Assembly (NCBI GenBank): GCA_034509425.1
Contig: JAVTVJ010000448.1
Coordinates: 44,957-108,956, forward strand
Length of the DNA: 64,000 nt
Source: Eopsaltria australis
Lineage: Eukaryota; Chordata; Aves; Passeriformes; Petroicidae
Direction: 5' to 3'
Shown here: positions 46,905 to 64,000 of the stretch, piece after piece
How the letters are laid out: every line of letters starts with the position of its first letter
How positions within the stretch are numbered: the stretch's first letter is position 1
Notes under the pieces: generated by a model
The model's database searches: none
The model's input: the letters and a program-made list of their open reading frames with translations, nothing else
What the model was told of the DNA's origin: nothing
Position numbers and translations under genes: made by a program

Positions 46905-47834
46905 TAGCTGTCATGTGGTGTGCCTCAGGGGTCAGGCCTGGGGCTGATACTGTTCAACATCGTGTTGGTGACATGGACAGTGGGATCAAGGACACCCTCA
47001 GCAAGTTCCCTGATGACACCAAGCTGTGTGGAGTGATCGACACCCTGGAGGGAAGGGATGGCATCCAGAGGGACTGGACAGGCTGGACAGCTGGGCCTGT
47101 GCAAACCTCCTGAGGTTCAAGGAAACGAGGTCATACATGTGGGTTGAGAGCAGCCCTGAGGAGAAGGACTTGGTGGTGATGGCTGATGAAAAACTCAACA
47201 CGAGCTGGCAGTGTGAGCTCACAGCCCAGAGAGCCAATGGTGCCCTGGGCTGCATCCAAAGGAGTGTGGCCAGCAGGGCAAAGGAGCAGATTCTCCCCCT
47301 CTGCTCTGCTCTGGTGAGACCCTACCTGGAGTCCTGCATCCAGCTCTGGAATCCCCAGTGTAAAAGGGCATGGGATTGTTGGAGCAAGTCCAGATAAGGG
47401 CCACAAAGTTGGTAAGAGGACTTGAGCACCTCCCCTATGAAGACAAGCAAAAATGGGGCTGTTCAGCCTGGAGAAGAGAAGGTTGTGTGGAGACACAACC
47501 TCCAAAGGCAACCTACCAGGAAGCCAGAGAGGGACTCTTTGTCAGGAATGATAGTGCTAGAACAAGGAGTAATGGGTACAAACTGAAAAAGAAGTTTAGT
47601 TTAAATATTAGGAAGAAATTCTTGACTGTGAGGGTGGTGAGACACTGGAACAGGTTTCCCAGGGAAGTTGTGGATGCCCCCAACCCTGGCAGTGTTCAAG
47701 GCCAGGTTGGACAAGTCCTTGAGCAACCTGGTCTGGCAGGAGGTTTCCCTGACCATGGCAGGAGGAGTTGGGAATAGATGATCTTTAAAGTCCCATCCAA
47801 CCCTTAATTTTCTATGATTCTATAATTCATGTGA
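46905..47834 (+). mobile_element. CR1 LINE 3' portion, plus strand
   Basis: A relatively well-preserved CR1: 'GTGTGCCTCAGGGGTCAGGC', 'GATGACACCAAGCTGTGTGG', 'GGTGGTGATGGCTGATGAAA', 'CTGGTGAGACCCTACCTGGA', 'GGTTTCCCAGGGAAGTTGTG' and the terminus TTCTATGATTCTATAATTC (about 47834). It is less diverged than other CR1s in the window, so probably from a younger subfamily. It faces the minus-strand CR1 at 45128-46340. Confidence 0.92.
46913..47777 (+). pseudogene. CR1 ORF2 reverse-transcriptase C-terminal remnant
   Basis: Two overlapping open frames (47026-47397 and 47370-47777) together encode the end of the CR1 ORF2 protein. Recognisable segments are an 'EKDLVVMADEKLN' region, 'ANGALGCIQRSVASRAKEQI', a 'LVRPYLESCIQLWNP' region, then 'ATKLVRGLEHLPYE' and 'HWNRFPREVVDAPN'. 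The frame shifts between the two parts and upstream of 47026, and the catalytic palm lies in the missing 5' part, so the copy is dead. Confidence 0.85.
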
Positions 47835-52326: not shown

Positions 52327-52692
52327 TGATGCCGTTTGGTTTCTGCCTTTTTTCTTTTATATGTTCTCTGTACTCTCTGCACATATTTTTGTAGCTCTGT
52401 AGCCTACTATATTAATAGCTAGTTTTTCCAGTACCTTTCCATAGCCTTTCCCTAAGCAGAAAGACAAAACAAATTCCAGAGCTCCAAGCCCCAGGGGGTG
52501 CAAGGCCCTGTCCTATCTCAGTTCTTCCTGGGAACCAAGGCCGAGAACAACTCTGAGGTACATTTTCATAAACAAAGTACAGCCAGTGCTGAGAGGGGGG
52601 CTCCAGGGAAGGGGCTGGACCTGAGGGGGAATTGGATCACCACTTGTTCTCCTTATTGGTGCTCTTAATCAATTATGCTAATTTCCTAAAAG

Positions 52693-52701
52693 CTATAAAT
52701 A
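52693..52701 (+). promoter_or_regulatory. LTR1 TATA box
   Basis: CTATAAATA, conserved at the same place in all five LTRs (56205, 58280, 61790 and 63846). A perfect palindrome CCCCT-GG-AGGGG follows at 52710-52721, so transcription should start just after it, near 52722-52728, by normal TATA spacing. Confidence 0.8.
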
Positions 52702-52769
52702 TGTACTCACCCCTGGAGGGGCTGGGCTTTTATGGACACCTTTCCATAACTGCTCCTGAAGACCTTCAA

Positions 52770-52775
52770 AATAAA
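52770..52775 (+). terminator. LTR1 polyadenylation signal AATAAA
   Basis: AATAAA about 70 bp downstream of the TATA box, followed by TTTTATATTACC. R is therefore short, about 60-70 bp. The matching signals in the other LTRs are at 56281, 58357, 61867 and 63923. Confidence 0.8.
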
Positions 52776-52853
52776 GATCCCCTTTTATATTACCTCCTTG
52801 CTAAAATGATCTCGAGTTTCTTTTCCAGGCTGGGGGAAAAGGCAACAGTTATT

Positions 52854-52872
52854 TGGCACACCCAGAAGGGAC
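52854..52872 (+). other. Primer-binding site, copy 1
   Basis: TGGCACACCCAGAAGGGAC begins six bases after the LTR end, where a retroviral tRNA primer site belongs. The pattern TGGC..ACCCAGA.GGGAC resembles the complement of an arginine tRNA 3' end, with mismatches. The tRNA identity is an inference I cannot verify here. Confidence 0.65.
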
Positions 52873-53339
52873 ACGAGAACCTGGTACCCTTCCTCTGGAC
52901 CGAAAACATCCTGCAAGGAATTCCTTTCTGACAGCAATCTAAAGAATTCCCTGCCACGGGCCTGAGGTCGAGACACCATGGTTCCAAGATCCCACAGGAG
53001 GTAGTATAAAGGTGGTTCTTTTCGTTGTGTAGTGTGTAGTTTGTATGTGTGTGTATTGTTTATGTATTGTGTATCTGTTTAAAGTCAGTAATTGTTAGCG
53101 ATCCCAGGACAACCTGGCGTGGTGGTGAGAAAATTTGCTTTTGAAATCATTTCTCCAAGTTTTTCCTGTTGCCGATTTTCCAACCTGCCCCAGAGATCGG
53201 CTGGTGGGGAGGAGGCGGGTGTGTGATCTCGGCTGAGATTGTTCACTGGTAGAGAAAAGCAATCACAGTGCGAAAGTTTATTTCATGTTTAGCACATGCG
53301 AGTTTTGAATTGAAAGCTGGCCTGGAGACATCTGGGCAT
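52873..53339 (+). other. ERV leader, copy 1
   Basis: Non-coding leader downstream of the primer site. A start codon in good context (ACACCATGG, 52978) opens only an eight-codon frame that stops at TAG. A GT-rich tract lies at 53025-53080. The leader then continues to the tandem repeats. No gag-like frame begins here. Confidence 0.6.
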
Positions 53340-53765
53340 GGAGCGGCCGGGGGAGGCCTGGTCTGCTTCTTGGTAGGAGGTGGGGGATGGGCCCGCTTCC
53401 TACAGGTTTGTGGAGCGGCTGGGTGTCCAGCCTGCTCCTTGGTGGGAGGCTGGGGAGAGATTCCCACTTCCTACAGGTTTGTGGAGCGGCTGGGTGTCCA
53501 GCTGCTCCTTGGTGGGAGCTGGGGAGAGATTCCCACTTCCTACAGGTTTGTGGAGCGGCTGGGTGCCCAAGCCTGCTCCTTTGGTGGGAAGCTGGGAGAG
53601 ATTCCACTTCCTATACAGGTTTGTGGAGCGGCTGGGTGCCCAGCCTGCTCCTTGGTGGGAAAGCTGGGGAGAGGATTCCCACTTCCTCAGGTCTGTGGAG
53701 AGGCCTGGTGTCTCAGCTGACTCCTTTAGTGGGAAGGCCGAAGGGGGATCCTCGCTTCCAGAAGG
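53340..53765 (+). repeat. 71-bp tandem repeat in the ERV leader, copy 1
   Basis: About six units, each with CTTCCTACAGGTTTGTGG, AGCGGCTGGGTG and CAGCCTGCTCCTTGGTGGGA. The unit has no stop in any forward frame, and 71 is not a multiple of three. All three frames therefore stay open and each cycles through the same peptide with a period of 71 residues. This copy shows several one-base indels relative to copy 2, near 53510-53690. Confidence 0.9.
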
Positions 53766-53865
53766 TTTTTTGGAACGGCCGAGAAAGCTCGGTTCGCACC
53801 TTGTAAGGGAAGGGGGAGAGCCCCCACTTTCTCTGGTCCATCTGTAAAAAGTTTTTCCCAGATTT

Positions 53866-54365
53866 TAAGGCAAGGGCGACTCCCGGACTTCCGGGACGGC
53901 TCCGCGAGCAGGGCGGTCACTCCCCCGTGACAGAAGCGGGGCACCAGCCGCTCTGAGAGGGGCGGAGGTGATTCCTACCATTGCCCTGGTCACGGCCGGG
54001 GGATGCGCGGGGGAGCGGTCCCAGGAAGCGAACCGGCACCGGGGCTGGCGCTGCGCTGCTTCGGCCCTGCTCTGGCGGAGGCGGGGCCGCCGCTGCGCGG
54101 CCACGGCCCGGCTCACTCGCTGCTCCTGGGCCCCGCCCGCACCGGCCCAGAGCGGGCCGGGAGGGTGAGATCTAAGAGCAGGAGCGGCCCTATCGCACTT
54201 TCCACAGTAACGAGCTTGTTTTAAGGACACCCGAGAGCCGCTGTGAGCAGCAGCACGGGCCGAGCGCGGGCGCGCCGGGGGTGCCCCTGGGCGGGGGTGC
54301 CCGCATGCCGCGCCCGTCCCCGGCCGTGCGAGGGCAGCGAGCGCTCTTTGTCTGCTCTGGTAAGC
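53866..54365 (+). other. CpG-dense block inside the ERV, copy 1
   Basis: An abrupt GC- and CpG-rich segment: I count 18 CpGs in 54001-54120. It holds Sp1-type GC boxes (GGCGGGGCC at 54080-54088, CCCCGCCC at 54131-54138) and ends in a consensus splice donor. It is unlike the flanking AT-rich ERV sequence and resembles a host CpG-island promoter and first exon. Capture from a host gene is an inference. A GC-rich retroviral leader is the alternative. The long minus-strand frame here (177 codons, Ala/Arg/Pro-rich) looks compositional. Confidence 0.7.
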
Positions 54366-54366
54366 A
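54359..54366 (+). promoter_or_regulatory. Candidate splice donor at the end of the CpG block
   Basis: G^GTAAGCA, with GT at 54360-54361, fits the vertebrate 5' splice-site consensus and lies exactly where composition changes from CpG-rich to AT-rich. It is conserved in copy 2 (GT at 59944-59945). Confidence 0.5.
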
Positions 54367-54687
54367 CTCAAAAGGGAAACACCGAGCCCAAAGAACAAGA
54401 AGCCGTTTTTAGGCTCCCTTAAACCATGCTATAAGTAAGCAGAGTCCTGTGTTAACAAATATCTTAGAATGGTTTACTGAGTTAAATTTGTAAAAGACCT
54501 TCTCCTGTATCCTTGTGAGTAAAAAAAGACCAAGGACTCTTTACTATTATGTAAAATAATCCTGAAACTGGAGAACTAGGGCAGTCAGCAACTGAAAATT
54601 GCTGCATCCAACCAGCAGCCAATAATTGATACATCCAACAGTTGCATGCAACCCACTTTAAGTTTGTTCTGTGAACATAGAAGACAT

Positions 54688-55020
54688 GGACCCTATGCCA
54701 TGCTACTGAAACTGGATAATGTTATTCTGAAAACGTTTGCTGTCAATCCTAGTATGTCTGTTCCCAGCACTAACTGATAATGTATTAAAGTCTGACTGTT
54801 TGCAGACCATTCCAGCAGAGCAGACCTGAAAGATGTGCCAGCCTGGGAGCTGTATGCAGATGAGAGCAGCTTCATGCGAGATGGCAAACAACAGACAGGT
54901 TATGCAGTAACAACCACGAACCAGGTAACCATGAGAAAAGTGTTACCATCAAATGTACCATCACCAAAAGCTGAACTGATTATATCAATGAAAGATCTAG
55001 AACTGAGCAAAGTCATCTAG
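54688..55020 (+). pseudogene. pol remnant: end of RT connection and N-terminal half of RNase H
   Basis: One frame reads through 54688-55020 with three in-frame stops between about 54775 and 54795. The second part (54796-55017) encodes LYADESSFMRDGKQQTGYAV, then ends near AELIISMKDLEL. This is the start of a retroviral RNase H: the first catalytic Asp (54859-54861) is present but the usual Gly after it is Glu, and the Glu of AELI is present. The later catalytic Asp residues are missing because the frame stops at TAG (55018). The upstream part (LKTFAVNPSMSVPS) occupies the place of the RT-RNase H linker of gamma-type pol. It is non-functional and conserved in copy 2. Confidence 0.75.
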
Positions 55021-55396
55021 AAGGAAGGAAGACTAGCAACTATTCAAGCCTAGAGACTGAGTCTATGTTGAATGAAGGGACAAGTAAATCTTAGCGAGTA
55101 AGTAAAAAGAGTCCATTCCAAGTCCTGACTACCCTCACACAAATCCAAAGCTGCTGGCGGAGCCTTTAATTCAACTGCTCAGAGTTAAGAAGAACGTCTG
55201 CTCATAGACAGCGCAGAAACAGAGACTGATACAAATTGAGATGAATATTTAACTGTTTTCTTTGTACCTTCTTATCTGTACAGTTGGTAACCGTGATTCA
55301 AATTTGGTCCTAAATTTGCATGTAACTCTAGTCCAAAATGTATCCAAAAGCTCTTCATAAGGACAACTTGTCAAAGTTGAGAATCTGGCCTGGTAA

Positions 55397-55555
55397 GTTT
55401 TGCCCCAAGATAAAGATTGGGCCTGTGCCCATGGAGCTGTGATTCCAAATGTAATGTTTAATCATATTAAAGGCTGTTGACAAAACAAAATAGCTCTTAA
55501 TTTCCTACTAGCCACAAAATCATTAACACTAGTTGTTGTTCTTCTGCAAATCTGA
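55397..55555 (+). pseudogene. Possible env transmembrane remnant
   Basis: A frame open from 55397 to 55477, then after one TGA from 55481 to 55552, reads QNKIALNFLLATKSL and a hydrophobic LVVVLL stretch. The Q-N, A-L and leucine spacing and its place between pol and the polypurine tract recall the heptad region of gamma-type transmembrane env proteins. It is short, has internal stops and lacks the expected cysteine motif. I consider this weak. Confidence 0.3.
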
Positions 55556-55825
55556 ATGAAAAATTTTTTTAGAAATTTGGTTGAAATTTGAAAGCAAACT
55601 CAAATTCTACACCAAGTAACTCTCAAAGAGCTTACTGAACCTTGAATATCTTCAGTACACTCACTTCATGGTTACCAAACTGAACCTAGATAAAAGAAAT
55701 GTTCATAGTAACTGTAGTTATAATTAGCATCTGTGTAACAACTAGTGGGATAGCCAGTTGTATAAAACAGAGGTATGGTTGAATGCAGAGTAGAGACTAG
55801 ACAAGACAGAGTCTTGTTAGTCTCT

Positions 55826-55839
55826 AAAAAAGGGGGGAA
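55826..55839 (+). other. Polypurine tract, copy 1
   Basis: AAAAAAGGGGGGAA lies immediately upstream of the TG of LTR2, the normal plus-strand primer position. Confidence 0.9.
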
Positions 55840-56354
55840 TGATGCCGTTTGGTTTCTGCCTTTTTTCTTTATATGTTCTCTGTACTCTCTGCCCATATTT
55901 TTGTGGCTCTGTAGCCTACTATATTAATAGCTAGTTTTTCCAGTACCTTTCCATAGCCTTTCCCTAAGCAGAAAGACAAAACAATTCCAGAGCTCCAAGC
56001 CCCAGGGGGTTGCAAGGCCCTGTCCTATCTCAGTTCTTCCTGGGAACCAAGGCCGAGAACAACTCTGAGGTACATTTTCATAAGCAGAGTGCAGCCAGTG
56101 CTGAGAGGGGGGCTCCAGGGAAGGGGCTGGACCTGAGGGGGAATTGAATCGCCACTTGTTCTCCTTATTGGTGCTCTTACTCAATTATGCTAATTTCCTA
56201 AACGCTATAAATATGTACTCACCCCTGGAGGGGCTGGGCTTTTATGGACACCTTTCCATAACTGCTCCTGAAGACTTTCAAATAAAGATCCCCTTTTATA
56301 TTACCTCCTGACATAAATGATCTCGAGTTTTCTTTCAGGCTGGGGAAGGCAACA
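55840..56354 (+). mobile_element. LTR2 (3' LTR of copy 1)
   Basis: The 515-bp LTR starts TGATGCC and ends GGCAACA, with TATA at 56205-56213 and AATAAA at 56281-56286. It shares 3'-LTR diagnostic bases with LTR4 (GCCCAT, GGGGGTTGC, AAGCAGAGTGCA, AATCGCCA). It is slightly shorter because of single-base deletions, some in U5. Satellite sequence CCGACGCC follows directly. Confidence 0.92.
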
Positions 56355-57912
56355 CCGACGCCACCTGAAATACCAGCTGGATCAAGATCCTTCCCAGACC
56401 CAAGCTGCCATCAACTAGAACTCTGGCTGCAATTGTAGGGCTAAATGCCTCCTAAAAACTGGCATCATGCATCTGGGGGGACTGAGTTTTCTTTCACATG
56501 GAAAAGCGCCATTGTTTGAATCGAAGGCCACATATCTGGGAGTTGACAGCCGCATGCTGAAATTCCGCATGGATTAAGATTCCTCACAGACCCAAGCTGC
56601 CACCAACAAGGACCCTGGCTGCCCTTGCAGGGCCAAAACCCTCCTCCAAACTGACATCAAAAACTGGGGGGCAGAGCTCTCTTTCTCTGAGAAAAGGACA
56701 CTTTTGTGTCCGGCCCTAAGGCACTCTGCTCCTGCTGCGTCTTCAAATTCGTATGGATCAAGATTCCTCGCAGAACCGCAAGCTGCCACAAACAGGACCC
56801 CTGGCTGCCTTTGCAGTGCCAAAACCCTCCTCCAAACTGACATCAAGAAAGTGGGGGGCAGAGTTCTCTTTCTCAGAGAAAAGGGACACTTTTTGTGTCC
56901 CAACCCTAAGGCACTCTGCCCCTGGACGCCACCTGAAATTCCGTATGTATCAAGATTACTGGCAGACGCAAGCTGCCGTCAACTAGAACTCTGGCTGCAA
57001 TTGCAGGGCTAAATGTCCCCTAAAAACTGGCATCATGGATTTGGGAGACTGAGTTTTCTTTCACGTGGATAAGTGCCATCATTTGTATCGTAGGCGCCAT
57101 GTCTGGGAATCAACTGCCGCCCCTTAAAATTCCGCATGAAGTAAGATCCATCACAGACCCAAGCTGCCACCGACAAGGACCCTGGCTGCCCTTGCAGGGC
57201 CAAAACCCTCCACCAAACTGACAATCAAGAAACCTTGAGGGGGCAGAGTTTCTTTCTCAGAGAAAGGGACACTTTTGTGTCTGGCCCTAAGGCAACTCTG
57301 CTCCCAGGAACGCCACCTGAATTCCGTAGGATCAAGACCTATTCGCTGACGGCAAGATGCCATCAAACGCAGGACTGCTGGTTGCATTTGTAGGCCACCA
57401 AACCCTGCCTCCAAACTGAACATGAAGAAACTGGGGGCAGAGCTATCTTTCTCAGAGAAAGGGAACAACTTTTGTGTCCGCTGGACCCTAAGGCACTCTG
57501 CTCCGGACACCACTCTGAAATGCCCATGGATCAAGATCCTTCCCAGACCCAAGCTGCCATCAAATAGAACTCTGGCTGCAATTGTAGGGCTAAATGCCTC
57601 CTAAAAACTGGCATCATGCATCTGGGGGACTGAGTTTTCTTTCACATGGAAATGCGCCATTGTTTGCATCGGAGGCCACATATCTGGGAGTTGACAGCTG
57701 CATGCTGAAATTCCTCATGGATTAAGATTCCTCGCAGACCCAAGCTGGCACCAACAAGGACCCTGGCTGCATTTGCAGGGCCAAAACCCTCCTCCAAACT
57801 GACATCAAGAAACTGGGGGGCAGAGTTCCCTTTCTCAGAGAAAAGGGGAAACAACTTTTTTTTTTTTTGGTTGGTCCCCGGCCCCTAAAAAGGGGGCAAG
57901 CTGTGCTCCCGG
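56355..57912 (+). repeat. Satellite block B1, eight ~190-bp monomers
   Basis: A tandem array recognisable by the recurring AAGATYC...CAGACCCAAGCTGCCA and CTCTGGCTGC core. I distinguish type a (TTTCACATGGA, no hairpin), type b (CTGGGGGGCAGAG, then a TTTCTCAGAGAAA dyad and GGGACAC-T5-GTGTCCC-like hairpin) and type c (CAGAGCTATC). The order is a, b, b, a', b, c, a, b. The last monomer is distorted by a T-run (about 57857-57870) and extra bases. No coding potential; open frames on both strands are by-products. I do not recognise the satellite by name. The monomer size is within the range of avian centromeric satellites. Confidence 0.85.
57909..57912. repeat. Target-site duplication CCGG, left copy
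   Basis: CCGG in ...GCTCCCGG directly before LTR3. The right copy is at 61945-61948. An unoccupied version, GCTCCCGGACGCC, is visible in the array at about 62898-62910. Confidence 0.8.
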
Positions 57913-58433
57913 TGATGCCGTTTGGTTTCTGCCTTTTTTCTTTTATATGTTCTCTGTACTCTCTGCACATATTTTTCTGGCTCTGTAGCCTTCTATATTA
58001 ATAGCTAGTTTTTCCAGTACCTTTCCATAGCCTTTCCCTAAGCAGAAAGACAAAACAAATTCCAGAGCTCCAAGCCCCAGGGGGGTGCAAGGCCCTGTCC
58101 TATCTCGGTTCTTCCTGGGAACCAAGGCCGAGAACAACTCTGAGGTACATTTTCATAAACAAAGTACAGCCAGTGCTGAGAGGGGGCTCCAGAGAAGGGG
58201 CTGGACCTGGGGGGGGAATTGAATCAGCACTTGTTCTCCTTATTGGTGCTTTTAATCAATTATGCTAATTTCCTAAAAGCTATAAATATGTACTCACCCC
58301 TGGAGGGGCTGGGCTTTTATGGACACCTTTCCATAACTGCTCCTGAAGACCTTCAAAATAAAGATCCCTTTTATATTACCTCCTTGCTAAAATGATCTCG
58401 AGTTTCTTTTCCAGGCTGGGGGAAAAGGCAACA
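57913..58433 (+). mobile_element. LTR3 (5' LTR of copy 2)
   Basis: 521 bp from TGATGCC to GGCAACA. TATA at 58280-58288, AATAAA at 58357-58362. Shares GCACAT and AAACAAAGTACA with LTR1, and CCTTCT with LTR5. Confidence 0.92.
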
Positions 58434-58440
58434 GTTTATT

Positions 58441-58457
58441 TGCACACCAGAAGGGAC
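58441..58457 (+). other. Primer-binding site, copy 2
   Basis: TGCACACCAGAAGGGAC, the same site as in copy 1 but with a G and a C missing, so it would prime poorly if the sequence is correct. The single-base losses may also be consensus errors. Confidence 0.6.
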
Positions 58458-58924
58458 ACGAGAACCTGGTACCTTCCTCTGGACCGAAAACATCCTGCAA
58501 GGAATTCCTTTCTGACAGCAATCTAAAGAATTCCCTGCCACGGGCCTGAGGTCGAGACACCATGGTTCCAAGATCCCACAGGAGGTAGTATAAAGGTGGT
58601 TCTTTTTGTTGTGTAGTGTGTAGTTTGTATGTGTGTGTATTGTTTATGTATTGTGTATCTGTTTAAAGTCAGTAATTGTTAGCGATCCCAGGACAACCTG
58701 GCGTGGTGGTGAGAAAATTTGCTTTTGAAATCATTTCTCCAAGTTTTTCCTGTTGCCGATTTTCCAACCTGCCCCAGAGATCGGCTGGTGGGGAGGAGGC
58801 GGGTGTGTGATCTCGGCTGAGATTGTTCACTGGTAGAGAAAAGCAAATCACAGTGCGAAAGTTTATTTCATGTTTAGCACATGCGAGTTTTGAATTGAAA
58901 GCTGGCCTGGAGACATCTGGGCAT
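58458..58924 (+). other. ERV leader, copy 2
   Basis: Near-identical to the leader of copy 1, including the short eight-codon upstream frame (ATG at about 58561) and the GT-rich tract (58608-58663). Confidence 0.6.
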
Positions 58925-59345
58925 GGAGCGGCCGGGGGAGGCCTGGTCTGCTTCTTGGTAGGAGGTGGGGGATGGGCCCCGCTTCCTACAGGTTTGTGGA
59001 GCGGCTGGGTGTCCAGCCTGCTCCTTGGTGGGAGGCTGGGGAGAGATTCCCACTTCCTACAGGTTTGTGGAGCGGCTGGGTGTCCAGCCTGCTCCTTGGT
59101 GGGAGGCTGGGGAGAGATTCCCACTTCCTACAGGTTTGTGGAGCGGCTGGGTGCCCAGCCTGCTCCTTGGTGGGAAGCTGGGGAGAGATTCCCACTTCCT
59201 ACAGGTTTGTGGAGCGGCTGGGTGCCCAGCCTGCTCCTTGGTGGGAGGCGAGTGAGAAATCCTCGCTTCCTACAGGTCTGTGGAGAGGCTGGGTGTCCAG
59301 CCTGCTCCTTAGTGGGAGGCGAGGGAGAGATCCTCGCTTCCAGCA
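58925..59345 (+). repeat. 71-bp tandem repeat in the ERV leader, copy 2
   Basis: Successive CTTCC starts at 58982, 59053, 59124, 59195, 59266 and 59337 give an exact 71-bp period. The last two units are variant (GAGAAATCCTCGCTTCC, GAGAGATCCTCGCTTCC). It is cleaner than in copy 1. Open frames of 96-188 codons exist in all three forward frames because the unit lacks stops. Confidence 0.92.
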
Positions 59346-59449
59346 AGTTTTGTGGAACGGCCGAGAAAGCTCGGTTCGCACCATTGTAAGGGAAGGGGGA
59401 GAAGCCCCCACTTTCTATGTTCCATCTGTAAAAAGTTTTTCCAAGATTT

Positions 59450-59949
59450 TAAGGCAAGGGCGACTCCCGGACTTCCGGGACGGCTCCGCGAGCAGGGCGG
59501 TCACTCCCCCGTGACAGAAGCGGGGCACCAGCCGCTCTGAGAGGGGCGGAGGTGATTCCTGCCATTGCCCTGGTCACGGCCGGGGGATGCGCGGGGGAGC
59601 GGTCCCAGGAAGCGAACCGGGACCGGGGCTGCCGCTGCGCTGCTTCGGCCCTGCTCTGGCGGAGGCGGGGCCGCCGCTGCGCGGCCACGGCCCGGCTCAC
59701 TCGCTGCTCCTGGGCCCCGCCCGCACCGGCCCAGAGCGGGCCGGGAGTGTGAGATCTAAGAGCAGGAACGGCCCTATCGCACTTTCCACAGTAACGAGCT
59801 TGTTTTAAGGACACCCGAGAGCCGCTGTGAGCAGCAGCACGGGCCGAGCGCGGGCGAGCCGGGGGTGCCCCTGGGCGGGGGTGCCCGCATGCCGCGCCCG
59901 TCCCCGGCCGTGCGAGGGCAGCGAGCGCTCTTTGTCTGCTCTGGTAAGC
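59450..59949 (+). other. CpG-dense block inside the ERV, copy 2
   Basis: Copy of the block at 53866-54365, with the same GC boxes and a few substitutions. Retention of dense CpGs in both copies argues against long-term germline methylation decay or for recent amplification. Confidence 0.7.
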
Positions 59950-59950
59950 A
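59943..59950 (+). promoter_or_regulatory. Candidate splice donor, copy 2
   Basis: G^GTAAGCA with GT at 59944-59945, identical to the site in copy 1. Confidence 0.5.
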
Positions 59951-60270
59951 CTCAAAAGGGAAACACCGAGCCCAAAGAACAAGAAGCCGTTTTTAGGCTC
60001 CCTTAAACCATGCAATAAGTAAGCAGAGTCCTGTGTTAACAAATATCTTAGAATGGTTTACTGAGTTAAATTTGTAAAAGACCTTCTCCTGTATCCTTGT
60101 GAGTAAAAAAGACCAAGGACTCTTTACTATTATGTAAAATAATCCTGAAACTGGAGAACTAGGGCAGTCAGCAACTGAAAATTGCTGCATCCAACCAGCA
60201 GCCAAGAATTGATACATCCAACAGTTGCATGCAACCAACTGTAAGTTTCTTCTGTGAACATAGAAGACAT

Positions 60271-60603
60271 GGACCCTATGCCATGCTACTGAAACTGGAT
60301 AATGTTATTCTGAAAACGTTTGCTGTCAATCCTAGTATGTCTGTTCCCAGCACTAACTGATAATGTATTTAAGTCTGACTGTTTGCAGACCATTCCAGCA
60401 GAGCAGACCTGAAAGATGTGCCAGCCTGGGAGCTGTATGCAGATGAGAGCAGCTTCATGCGAGATGGCAAACAAAAGACAGGTTATGCAGTAACAACCAC
60501 GAACCAGGTAACCATGAGAAAAGTGTTACCATCAAATGTACCATCACAAAAAGCTGAACTGATTATATCAATGAAAGATCTAGAACTGAGCAAAGTCATC
60601 TAG
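60271..60603 (+). pseudogene. pol remnant, copy 2
   Basis: Same RT-linker and RNase H fragment as at 54688-55020, ending at the same TAG. It has one more in-frame stop (TTTAAG in place of TTAAAG near 60370) and a Q-to-K change in the GKQ-K-TGYAV stretch. The first catalytic Asp is retained and the later ones are absent. Confidence 0.75.
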
Positions 60604-60979
60604 AAGGAAGGAAGACTAGCAACTATTCAAGCCTAGAGACTGAGTCTATGTTGAATGAAGGGACAGTAATCTTACGAGCTAAGTAAAAAGAGTCATTCCA
60701 AGTCCTGACTACCCTCACCAAATCCAAAGCTGCTGGCAGAGAGCCTTGAATTCACTGCTCCAGAGTTAAGAAGACGTCTGCTCCATAGACAGCCAGAAAA
60801 CAGAGACTGATACAAATTGAGATGATATGATTTAAACTGTTCTTTTGTACCTCTTATCTGTACAGTTGGTAACCGTGATTCAAATTTGGTCCTAAAATTT
60901 GCATGTAACTCTAGTCCAAAATGTATCCAAAAGCTCTTCATAAGGACAACTTGTCAAAGTTGAGAATCTGGCCTGGTAA

Positions 60980-61138
60980 GTTTTGCCCCAAGATAAAGAT
61001 TGGGCCTGTGCCCATGGAGCTGTGATTCCAAATGTAATGTTTAATCATATTAAAGGCTGTTGACAAAACAAAATAGCTCTTAATTTCCTACTAGCCACAA
61101 AATCATTAACACTAGTTGTTGTTCTTATGCAAATCTGA
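60980..61138 (+). pseudogene. Possible env transmembrane remnant, copy 2
   Basis: Equivalent of 55397-55555, with the same internal TGA (61061-61063) before QNKIALNFLLATKSL. It shares the weakness of the first copy. Confidence 0.3.
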
Positions 61139-61408
61139 ATGAAAATTTTTTTAGAAATTTGGTTGAAATTTGAAAGCAAACTCAAATTCTACACCAAGTA
61201 ACTCTCAAAAGAGCTTACTGAACCTTGAATATCTTCAGTACACTCACTTCATGGTTACCAAACTGAACCTAGATAAAAGAAATGTTCATAGTAACTGTAG
61301 TTATAATTAGCATCTGTGTAACAACTAGTGGGATAGCCAGTTGTATAAACCAGAGGTATGGTTGAATGCAGAGTAGAGACTAGACAAGACAGAGTCTTGT
61401 TAGTCTCT

Positions 61409-61422
61409 AAAAAAGGGGGGAA
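61409..61422 (+). other. Polypurine tract, copy 2
   Basis: AAAAAAGGGGGGAA directly before LTR4, identical to copy 1. Confidence 0.9.
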
Positions 61423-61944
61423 TGATGCCGTTTGGTTTCTGCCTTTTTTCTTTTATATGTTCTCTGTACTCTCTGCCCATATTTTTGTGGCTCTGTAGCC
61501 TACTATATTAATAGCTAGTTTTTCCAGTACCTTTCCATAGCCTTTCCCTAAGCAGAAAGACAAAACAAATTCCAGAGCTCCAAGCCCCAGGGGGTTGCAA
61601 GGCCCTGTCCTATCTCAGTTCTTCCTGGGAACCAAGGCCGAGAACAACTCTGAGGTACATTTTCATAAGCAGAGTGCAGCCAGTGCTGAGAGGGGGGCTC
61701 CAGGGAAGGGGCTGGACCTGAGGGGGAATTGAATCGCCACTTGTTCTCCTTATTGGTGCTCTTAATCAATTATGCTAATTTCCTAAAAGCTATAAATATG
61801 TACTCACCCCTGGAGGGGCTGGGCTTTTATGGACACCTTTCCATAACTGCTCCTGAAGACCTTCAAAATAAAGATCCCCTTTTATATTACCTCCTTGCTA
61901 AAATGATCTCGAGTTTCTTTTCCAGGCTGGGGGAAAAGGCAACA
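61423..61944 (+). mobile_element. LTR4 (3' LTR of copy 2)
   Basis: 522 bp from TGATGCC to GGCAACA. TATA at 61790-61798, AATAAA at 61867-61872. Carries the 3'-type diagnostic bases of LTR2. Confidence 0.92.
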
Positions 61945-63478
61945 CCGGACGCCACCTGAAATGGCGCATGGATCAAGATCCTTCCCAGACCCAAGCTGCC
62001 ATCAGCTAGAACTCTGGCTGCAATTGTAGGGCTAAATGCCTCCTAAAAACTGGCATCATGCATCTGGGGGACTGAGTTTCTTGCACATGGAAATGCGCCA
62101 TTGTTTGCATCGAAGGCACATAATCTGGGAGTTGACAGCGCATGCTGAAATTCGCATGGATTAAGATTCCTCGCAGACCCAAGCTGCCACCGACAGGGAC
62201 GCCTGGCTGCCCTTGTAGGGCCAAAACCCTCTCCAAGACTGACATCCAAGAACTGGGGGGCAGAGTTCCATCTTTCCTCAGAGAAAAGGGACACTTTTTT
62301 GTGTCCCGGCCCTAAGGCCACTCTGCTCCTGCTGCGTCTTCAAATTCCGTATGGATCAAGATTCCTCGCAGACCCAAGCTGCCACCGACAGGGACTCTGG
62401 CTGCCCTTGCAGGGCTAAAAACCCTCCTCCAAACTGACAGCAAGAAACTGGGGGGCAGAGTTCTCTTTCTCAGAGAAAAGGGACACTTTTTGTGTCCCGG
62501 CCCTAAGGCACTTTGCTCCTGGACGCCACCTGAAATTTCCGTATGGATCAAGATTCCTGGCTGACGCAAGCTGCCATCAACCAGGACTCTGGTTGATTTT
62601 GTAGGGCTAAAATCCTCCACAAAACCGACATCATGAATTTCGGGCCTAAGTTTTCTTTCACGTGGATAAGTGCATCATTTGTAATCGTAGGCCCCATGTT
62701 CTGGAGTCGACGGCCGCCTCTTCACAATTCGTCATGGAGCCAAGATTCCTCGCAGACTCAAGCTGCCACCGACTACGACACTGGCTGCCCTTGCAGGGCC
62801 AAAACTCTGCTCCAAACTGACATCAAGAAACTGGGGGGCAGAGTTCTCTTTCTCAGAGAAAAGGGACACTTTTTGTGTCCCGGCCCTAAGGCACTGTGCT
62901 CCCGGACGCCACCTGAAATTCCGTATGGATCAAGATTATTCGCTGACGCAAGCTGCCATCAACCATGACTCTGGTTGCATTTGTAAGGGCTAAAACCCTC
63001 CAGAACTGACATGAACGAAACTGTGGGGCAGAGCTATCTTTTTCTCAGAGAAAAGGCGACACTTTTTGTGTCGCCGGCCTAAGGACATCTGCTCCGGACA
63101 CGCACTTAAAATGCGCATGGATGCAGATCCTTCCCAGACCCAAGCTTGCATCAGTCTAGAAATCTGGCTGCAATTGTAGGGCTAAATGCCTCCTAAAAAC
63201 TGGCATCATGCATCTGGGGGACTGAGTTTTCTTTCACATGGAAAAGCGCCATTGTTTGGATCGAAGGCCACATATCTGGGAGTTGACAGCCGCATGCTGA
63301 AATTCCGCATGGATTAAGATTCCTCGCAGACCCAAGCTGGCACCAACAAGGACCCTGGCTGCCCTTGCAGGGCCAAAACCCTCCTCCAAACTGACATCAA
63401 GAAACTGGGGGGCAGACATCTCTTTCTCAGAGAAAAGGGACACTTCTTGTGTCCGGCCCTAAGGCACTGTGCTCCCTG
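61945..63478 (+). repeat. Satellite block B2, eight ~190-bp monomers
   Basis: 1534 bp with the same monomer order as B1 (a, b, b, a', b, c, a, b). It starts with the right-hand CCGG of ERV copy 2 and ends ...GTGCTCCCTG against LTR5. A clean b-type monomer shows GGGACAC-TTTTT-GTGTCCC at 62863-62881. Identical order and identical ERV phase in both blocks show that satellite and ERV were duplicated as one unit. Confidence 0.88.
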
Positions 63479-64000
63479 TGATGCCGTTTGGTTTCTGCCT
63501 TTTTTCTTTTATATGTTCTCTGTACTCTCTGCACATATTTTTGTGGCTCTGTAGCCTTCTATATTAATAGCTAGTTTTTCCAGTACCTTTCCATAGCCTT
63601 TCCCTAAGCAGAAAGACAAAACAAATTCCAGAGCTCCAAGCCCCAGGGGGTTGCAAGGCCCTGTCCTATCTCAGTTCTTTCTGGGAACCAAGGCCGAGAA
63701 CAACTCTGTGGTACATTTTCATAAGCAGAGTGCAGCCAGTGCTGAGAGGGGGGCTCCAGGGAAGGGGCTGGACCTGAGGGGGAATTGAATCGCCACTTGT
63801 TCTCCTTATTGCTGCTCTTAATCAATTATGCTAATTTCCTAAAAGCTATAAATATGTACTCACCCCTGGAGGGGCTGGGCTTTTATGGACACCTTTCCAT
63901 AACTGCTCCTGAAGACCTTCAAAATAAAGATCCCCTTTTATATTACCTCCTTGCTAAAATGATCTCGAGTTTCCTTTCCAGGCTGGGGGAAAAGGCAACA
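63479..64000 (+). mobile_element. LTR5, hybrid LTR
   Basis: 522 bp from TGATGCC to GGCAACA, ending at the last base of the window. TATA at 63846-63854, AATAAA at 63923-63928. Its start matches 5' LTRs (GCACAT at 63531, CCTTCT at 63555) while the rest matches 3' LTRs (GGGGGTTGC, AAGCAGAGTGCA, AATCGCCA). It sits in the satellite at the same phase as LTR3; the left flank CCTG differs from CCGG by one base. It is probably a solo LTR made by recombination between the two LTRs of a third copy. Confidence 0.85.

Follow-up and report, generated by a model that had tools for sequence, protein, structure and literature searches.

The right end of a 64,000-nucleotide stretch of DNA from Eopsaltria australis (assembly GCA_034509425.1, contig JAVTVJ010000448.1, positions 44,957 to 108,956 of the forward strand; here called the window and numbered from its first base) carries two copies of an endogenous retrovirus (ERV) set into a satellite with a monomer of about 191 bp. 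Comparison of the long terminal repeats (LTRs) and their flanks supports the view that the provirus entered the satellite once and was afterwards duplicated, probably together with eight satellite monomers. Two units made up of an LTR, an internal region, an LTR and a satellite block lie in tandem and are followed by a fifth LTR, with all elements on the plus strand. A sequence-only reading of this DNA had described the same order, with start-to-start spacings of 5586 bp from LTR1 to LTR3 and 5566 bp from LTR3 to LTR5, and both the order and the spacings were borne out when the window was compared with itself. The elements are as follows.

52327-52847, plus strand: LTR1, the 5' LTR of ERV copy 1; its left flank is unique, non-satellite DNA.
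52848-55839, plus strand: internal region of ERV copy 1, about 3 kb, with a 71-bp minisatellite, a GC-rich stretch and an RNase H remnant.
54796-55017, plus strand: RNase H remnant of copy 1, open over 74 amino acids, of gammaretrovirus type (pol) by a search of the PDB.
55840-56354, plus strand: LTR2, the 3' LTR of ERV copy 1, from the self-comparison.
56355-57912, plus strand: satellite block a, eight monomers of 184-218 bp by an anchor parse.
57913-58433, plus strand: LTR3, the 5' LTR of ERV copy 2; its left flank ends in CTCCCGG.
58434-61422, plus strand: internal region of ERV copy 2, from the self-comparison.
60379-60600, plus strand: RNase H remnant of copy 2, 74 amino acids, with a weak match to Pfam RNase_H.
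61423-61944, plus strand: LTR4, the 3' LTR of ERV copy 2, followed by CCGGACG.
61945-63478, plus strand: satellite block b, eight monomers of 189-195 bp.
63479-64000, plus strand: LTR5, directly after the satellite, probably a solo LTR.

In the self-comparison, 52327-58433 matched 57913-64000 with 94.36% identity over 6174 columns (195 mismatches, 153 gap positions), which is far beyond chance. Within the 64 kb, an LTR2 query matched only the five LTR places (E 1e-5), and at the same threshold neither LTR2 nor satellite block a had a match before 52327; among the upstream 52,326 bases, shared 14-mers are scattered, with 5 start positions for the satellite and 2 for the LTR. The last base of LTR5 is also the last base of the window (64000), which would fit a contig that ends at a repeat border. 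The stretch LTR2-satellite-LTR3 was considered as a transposable unit and was rejected, since LTR2 is adjoined by satellite and not by the sequence found 3' of LTR1 and LTR3.

The case for a single insertion is built on an alignment of LTR1 to LTR4. All five informative columns (55, 247, 250, 254 and 315) pair LTR1 with LTR3 and LTR2 with LTR4; there was no column pairing LTR1 with LTR2 and LTR3 with LTR4, that is, no grouping by provirus, and none pairing LTR1 with LTR4 and LTR2 with LTR3. At columns 247, 250, 254 and 315 the 5' LTRs have A and the 3' LTRs have G, and the diagnostic columns taken together reflect at least three separate changes. Because the LTRs group 5' with 5' and 3' with 3', it is supported that the two ERV copies stem from one insertion, duplicated once divergence had set in between its two LTRs. 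Over their full length the two internal regions can be aligned with each other, at 33 substitutions in 2961 aligned bases (six segments summed, the minisatellite included).

The insertion site itself can be recognized in unit 2, where the flanks overlap by CCGG (CTCCCGG to the left of LTR3, CCGGACG to the right of LTR4). The joined form of this site, CTCCCGGACG, stands intact and empty at 62899-62908 on the plus strand, at the boundary of monomers b5 and b6. Judged by these flanks, CCGG is the 4-bp target-site duplication of unit 2 and lies at a monomer boundary. LTR2 is followed by CCGACG and LTR5 is preceded by CTCCCTG, each one base off; satellite on both sides together with a target-site duplication was found for unit 2 and not for unit 1, which has a unique left flank.

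Tandem Repeats Finder reported periods of 191-192 bp with 7.8 and 8.0 copies, as well as a 383-bp period in block b, and the anchor parse gave eight monomers of about 191 bp in each block. Monomers with the same number in the two blocks have a mean identity of 93.4% (gaps ignored), whereas random pairings average 83.1%; the observed value was reached by 9 of 100,000 permutations, and the other cyclic shifts gave 77.3-84.5%. Diverged monomers are therefore repeated in one order over the two satellite blocks, as expected of a higher-order repeat. The earlier claims that a provirus had landed in a satellite of about 190 bp, and that the monomer order is identical in both blocks, thus hold, the first through the target-site duplication and the monomer length, and the second through the permutation result, though the order is not strict for each monomer. 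The same-number monomer is not the best partner for a2, a5 and a7 (3 of 8) or, in the reverse direction, for b5 and b8 (2 of 8). Monomers 1 and 7, and likewise 2 and 8, are near-copies in each block and are as alike within blocks as between them; monomer 5 is not closest to its counterpart and resembles 2 and 3, and monomer 3 is about equally close to 2, to 8 and to its counterpart. Likeness between blocks that exceeds likeness within them is clear, in these two blocks, for monomers 4 and 6. Scans against Rfam and for tRNAs gave no match in the window, block b had no match among phage records, and short exact patterns had none in viral and prokaryote contigs; a 16-base satellite string was not found in the full text of papers, nor was the satellite name Tgut191A in the literature searched.

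The ERV and the satellite were compared for divergence by counting substitutions with no gap within 6 columns, with four gap settings for the satellite. The ERV copies (LTRs and internal segments) differ at 39 of 3431 columns under one gap setting. For the satellite blocks the count is 66 of 862 columns under that same setting; two further settings both give 44 of 785, and the fourth gives 85 of 927. Divergence in the satellite is thus roughly five- to eightfold that in the ERV copies, depending on the setting. The excess is greatest midway along the block, at 56955-57194, with 28-42 substitutions in 232-238 aligned columns, again by setting. Since the satellite is more diverged than the ERV, while copying of a finished unit predicts equal divergence, we favour unequal exchange in an older array of diverged repeats over rolling-circle copying of the finished unit; the sequence-only reading had left both routes open. 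A rival view is that the whole ERV-plus-eight-monomer unit was copied as a block, perhaps through a rolling circle that reinserted, many times over. The unit boundaries and the monomer order are the same in both copies, and error and CpG decay in the satellite could inflate its difference, but the contrast in divergence and the recombinant look of LTR5 make block copying improbable.

The noise in the sequence bears on this contrast. Gap events per kb number 74 in 55021-55300, 44 in the minisatellite and 50 in the satellite, against 5-12 in the other six segments. By 250-bp bins, 14 of the 16 ERV bins have 0-4 gap events and the other two 17 and 20, whereas the seven satellite bins have 12, 14, 5, 16, 22, 0 and 8. 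Dense-indel pockets at 53577-53826, 55077-55326 and 56327-57576 (12-22 gap events in 6 of their 7 bins) suggest unpolished long-read sequence. Noise of this kind can come without many substitutions, as in 55021-55300 (2 of 269), although there are 11 in 428 in the noisy minisatellite, and the satellite bin at 57577, with zero gaps, still has 9 substitutions. Error and CpG decay may thus explain part of the contrast between ERV and satellite, but probably not all of it.

The left edge of the array is of a different kind. LTR1 is preceded by unique DNA (..GATATCATTT) without satellite and without CCGG, the border between unique DNA and array falls exactly at the first base of LTR1, and LTR1 shares 5'-type states with LTR3. 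Such an edge suggests either that an LTR at a unique site took part in recombination or that the assembly was joined through the ERV. Under the first of these, LTRs embedded in satellite might serve as homology handles that graft arrays onto ERV sites elsewhere, the edge at 52327 being such a graft, made when the ERV of the satellite crossed over with a provirus or solo LTR that lay in unique DNA. A graft would leave unique DNA joined at the first base of an LTR, no CCGG and possibly a mixed LTR1, and LTR1 is indeed 5'-type at columns 55 and 247-315 while it lacks the state of LTR3 and LTR5 at column 80, which is a single column. We put this forward tentatively, as a possibility with the odds clearly against it; the left junction, if real, would show a route by which a satellite reaches new places via shared LTRs.

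Assembly artefact is the other explanation of the edge, in which a shared ERV or LTR led to a join of unique DNA with satellite, or noisy reads caused one unit to be entered twice. The border with unique DNA and the end of the window both fall exactly on LTR edges, and the sequence is patchy and looks unpolished, as such an artefact would have it. The units nevertheless differ, away from gaps, at 39 substitutions in ERV sequence, and they share 5'- and 3'-LTR-specific states, so that they look like two real copies, and we consider an artefact unlikely. The left join alone could be false even with two real units. In the upstream DNA, open frames at 47017-47777 resemble by eye the tail of a CR1 reverse transcriptase, with no match in Pfam; Pfam gave no match in any of the 5 upstream open frames tried.

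LTR5 stands in a 5' position, directly after satellite, and yet has the 3'-LTR states at columns 247, 250, 254 and 315, while it shares the states of LTR3 at columns 55 and 80. It is probably a recombinant of a 5' and a 3' LTR, and a solo LTR; the alternative is a true 5' LTR altered by gene conversion. If it is a solo LTR, satellite and not an internal region is expected after 64000. A third full provirus opening at LTR5 is not supported, in view of the 3'-LTR states in a 5' position and the end of the window at that point.

Two proviruses that had separately entered adjacent satellite repeats at one and the same point would both end, as these do, at the same monomer boundary on the right, but with no informative column (0 of 5) grouping the LTRs by provirus, the opposite of the pattern expected of independent insertions, and with internal regions that align end to end, this explanation is hardly credible.

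The history that we propose is as follows. The ERV would have inserted once at a monomer boundary of the satellite array, making the CCGG duplication, as the flanks and the LTR columns indicate. After its LTRs had diverged, the provirus and an eight-monomer stretch of satellite would have been duplicated to give a composite unit of 5.57 kb in tandem, presumably by unequal exchange or an equivalent copying by break repair within the array. Later exchange may have shuffled pieces, leaving the satellite between the ERVs as a more diverged patchwork and LTR5 as a recombinant. The composite unit has no shown function and was most likely carried by recombination and not by transposition of its own. 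Taken as a whole, a single insertion followed by duplication through exchange in an older satellite array is in our judgement a likely account, with a real margin of doubt.

Several observations weigh against that account. The window shows only two LTR-internal region-LTR units and two satellite blocks, and unit 1, with no satellite to the left of LTR1, does not qualify as a full unit from inside an array. Of the five diagnostic LTR columns, three are packed into 8 bp and may stem from a single event, and the exact CCGG is found only around unit 2. The assembly is uneven and error may account for part of the satellite difference, to which CpG decay may add, 19-26 of 81-117 satellite substitutions being in CpG context. 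As for LTR5, its 5'-type start is carried by only two columns, over columns 1-200 it has 3 differences from LTR3 and 2 each from LTR1, LTR2 and LTR4, and LTR4 is the closest to it when all columns of the LTR are taken (6 of 522). The suggestion that the ERV has been amplified along with the satellite stands as far as one duplication, given the five of five LTR columns, and not for copies beyond the two units visible. With only two units visible, an amplified array that spreads active promoters is unproven, and the proposed location in heterochromatin is likewise not supported.

The provirus can be described from its LTRs and from a small remnant of pol. The LTRs begin with TGATGCC and end with CAACA, and TATAAATA and AATAAA are kept in all five copies. 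In copy 1 a TGG-containing stretch 3' of LTR1 is a putative primer-binding site, and a purine-rich tract lies 5' of LTR2; the internal region spans about 3.0 kb, with no long retroviral reading frame recognized in copy 1. The best PDB match of the copy 1 RNase H remnant was XMRV RNase H (E 1.5e-7, residues 4-70), and the next 8 of its 10 PDB matches were named reverse transcriptase/ribonuclease H or RNase H. This remnant had no Pfam match, and that of copy 2 matched Pfam RNase_H at E 0.021 and 15.4 bits, under the cut-off of 25.8 bits; when the RNase H remnant was searched against proteins, two were retrieved, 73% and 56% identical. No part of pol other than the 74-amino-acid remnant was recognized in the internal region. 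Class I ERVs have TG..CA LTRs and target-site duplications of 4-5 bp. The TGATGCC..CAACA ends and the CCGG around unit 2 agree with this, and gammaretroviral pol is represented by the RNase H remnant only. The provirus thus appears to be an internally deleted, gammaretrovirus-related, class I-like ERV. Its internal region also holds the 71-bp minisatellite, at 53339-53780 (4.8 copies) and 58924-59362 (5.8 copies), and a GC-rich, CpG-island-like stretch at 53830-54380 (GC 0.70, CpG observed/expected 0.87), the remainder of the region being AT-richer; this stretch is possibly captured host DNA.

Copying of a provirus along with a satellite has precedents in human K111 and, in outline, in rye; the comparisons that follow draw on the parts of the cited reports covered here. 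A unit of the LTR-internal region-LTR-satellite kind was not found in the titles and abstracts surveyed, a coverage outside which most subscription journals lie. The closest precedent is the human pericentromeric HERV-K111/K222. HERV-K111 inserted in the human satellite CER:D22Z3 with its target-site duplication kept, recombination is proposed to have copied it along with the satellite, and its copies include separate 5'-LTR and 3'-LTR clades, solo LTRs and K222/K111 recombinants with differing flanks (PMC4425911). The insertion in satellite, the kept duplication and the LTR clades by position are common to both systems, which may also be likened in their solo LTRs and recombinants with mismatched flanks. 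K111/K222 belong to HERV-K(HML-2), have duplications of 5-6 bp and occur on many human chromosomes, whereas the present ERV has a gammaretrovirus-like remnant and a 4-bp duplication, and is seen as two copies in direct tandem with an eight-monomer spacer.

In rye, the subtelomeric pSc200 and pSc250 arrays expanded together with adjacent LTR retrotransposons; solo LTRs are enriched there, and at junctions the start of most element copies coincides with, or lies very close to, an LTR terminus (PMC4857426). These are plant elements of several families, and the covered parts of that report describe no fixed unit of provirus plus monomers. Among birds, three tandem ERVs form one centromere core in chicken and likewise lie in repeat-rich DNA, but the unit described in the covered parts has no satellite spacer (PMC9974502), and the present ERV, unlike those, is internally deleted. 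The 14-kb satellite crowSat1 of crows (via PMC6115840) is alike, by description alone, as a long-unit satellite in birds. The duck APL-HaeIII/RBMII satellite has a 190-bp unit and an average GC of 51.6% (PMC6435179, which lists records LC416791-LC416795 and X61424), with which the present satellite, of about 191 bp and 51.0 and 51.8% GC in its two blocks, agrees in length and GC only. The restriction sites in the 16 monomers were HaeIII 13, MspI 9, TaqI 4 and BamHI 0, and kinship with the duck satellite is only a lead. In the mallard assembly, CR1 and not ERVs were described inside the duck centromere arrays (PMC11745021). What the present array adds to these systems is the contrast in divergence between ERV and satellite and a recombinant-looking LTR5. 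It offers a compact case whose sequence allows insertion, duplication and LTR recombination to be placed in order, with the ERV acting as a tag inside the satellite, so that the ERV copies gauge the duplication and the satellite gauges the older array.

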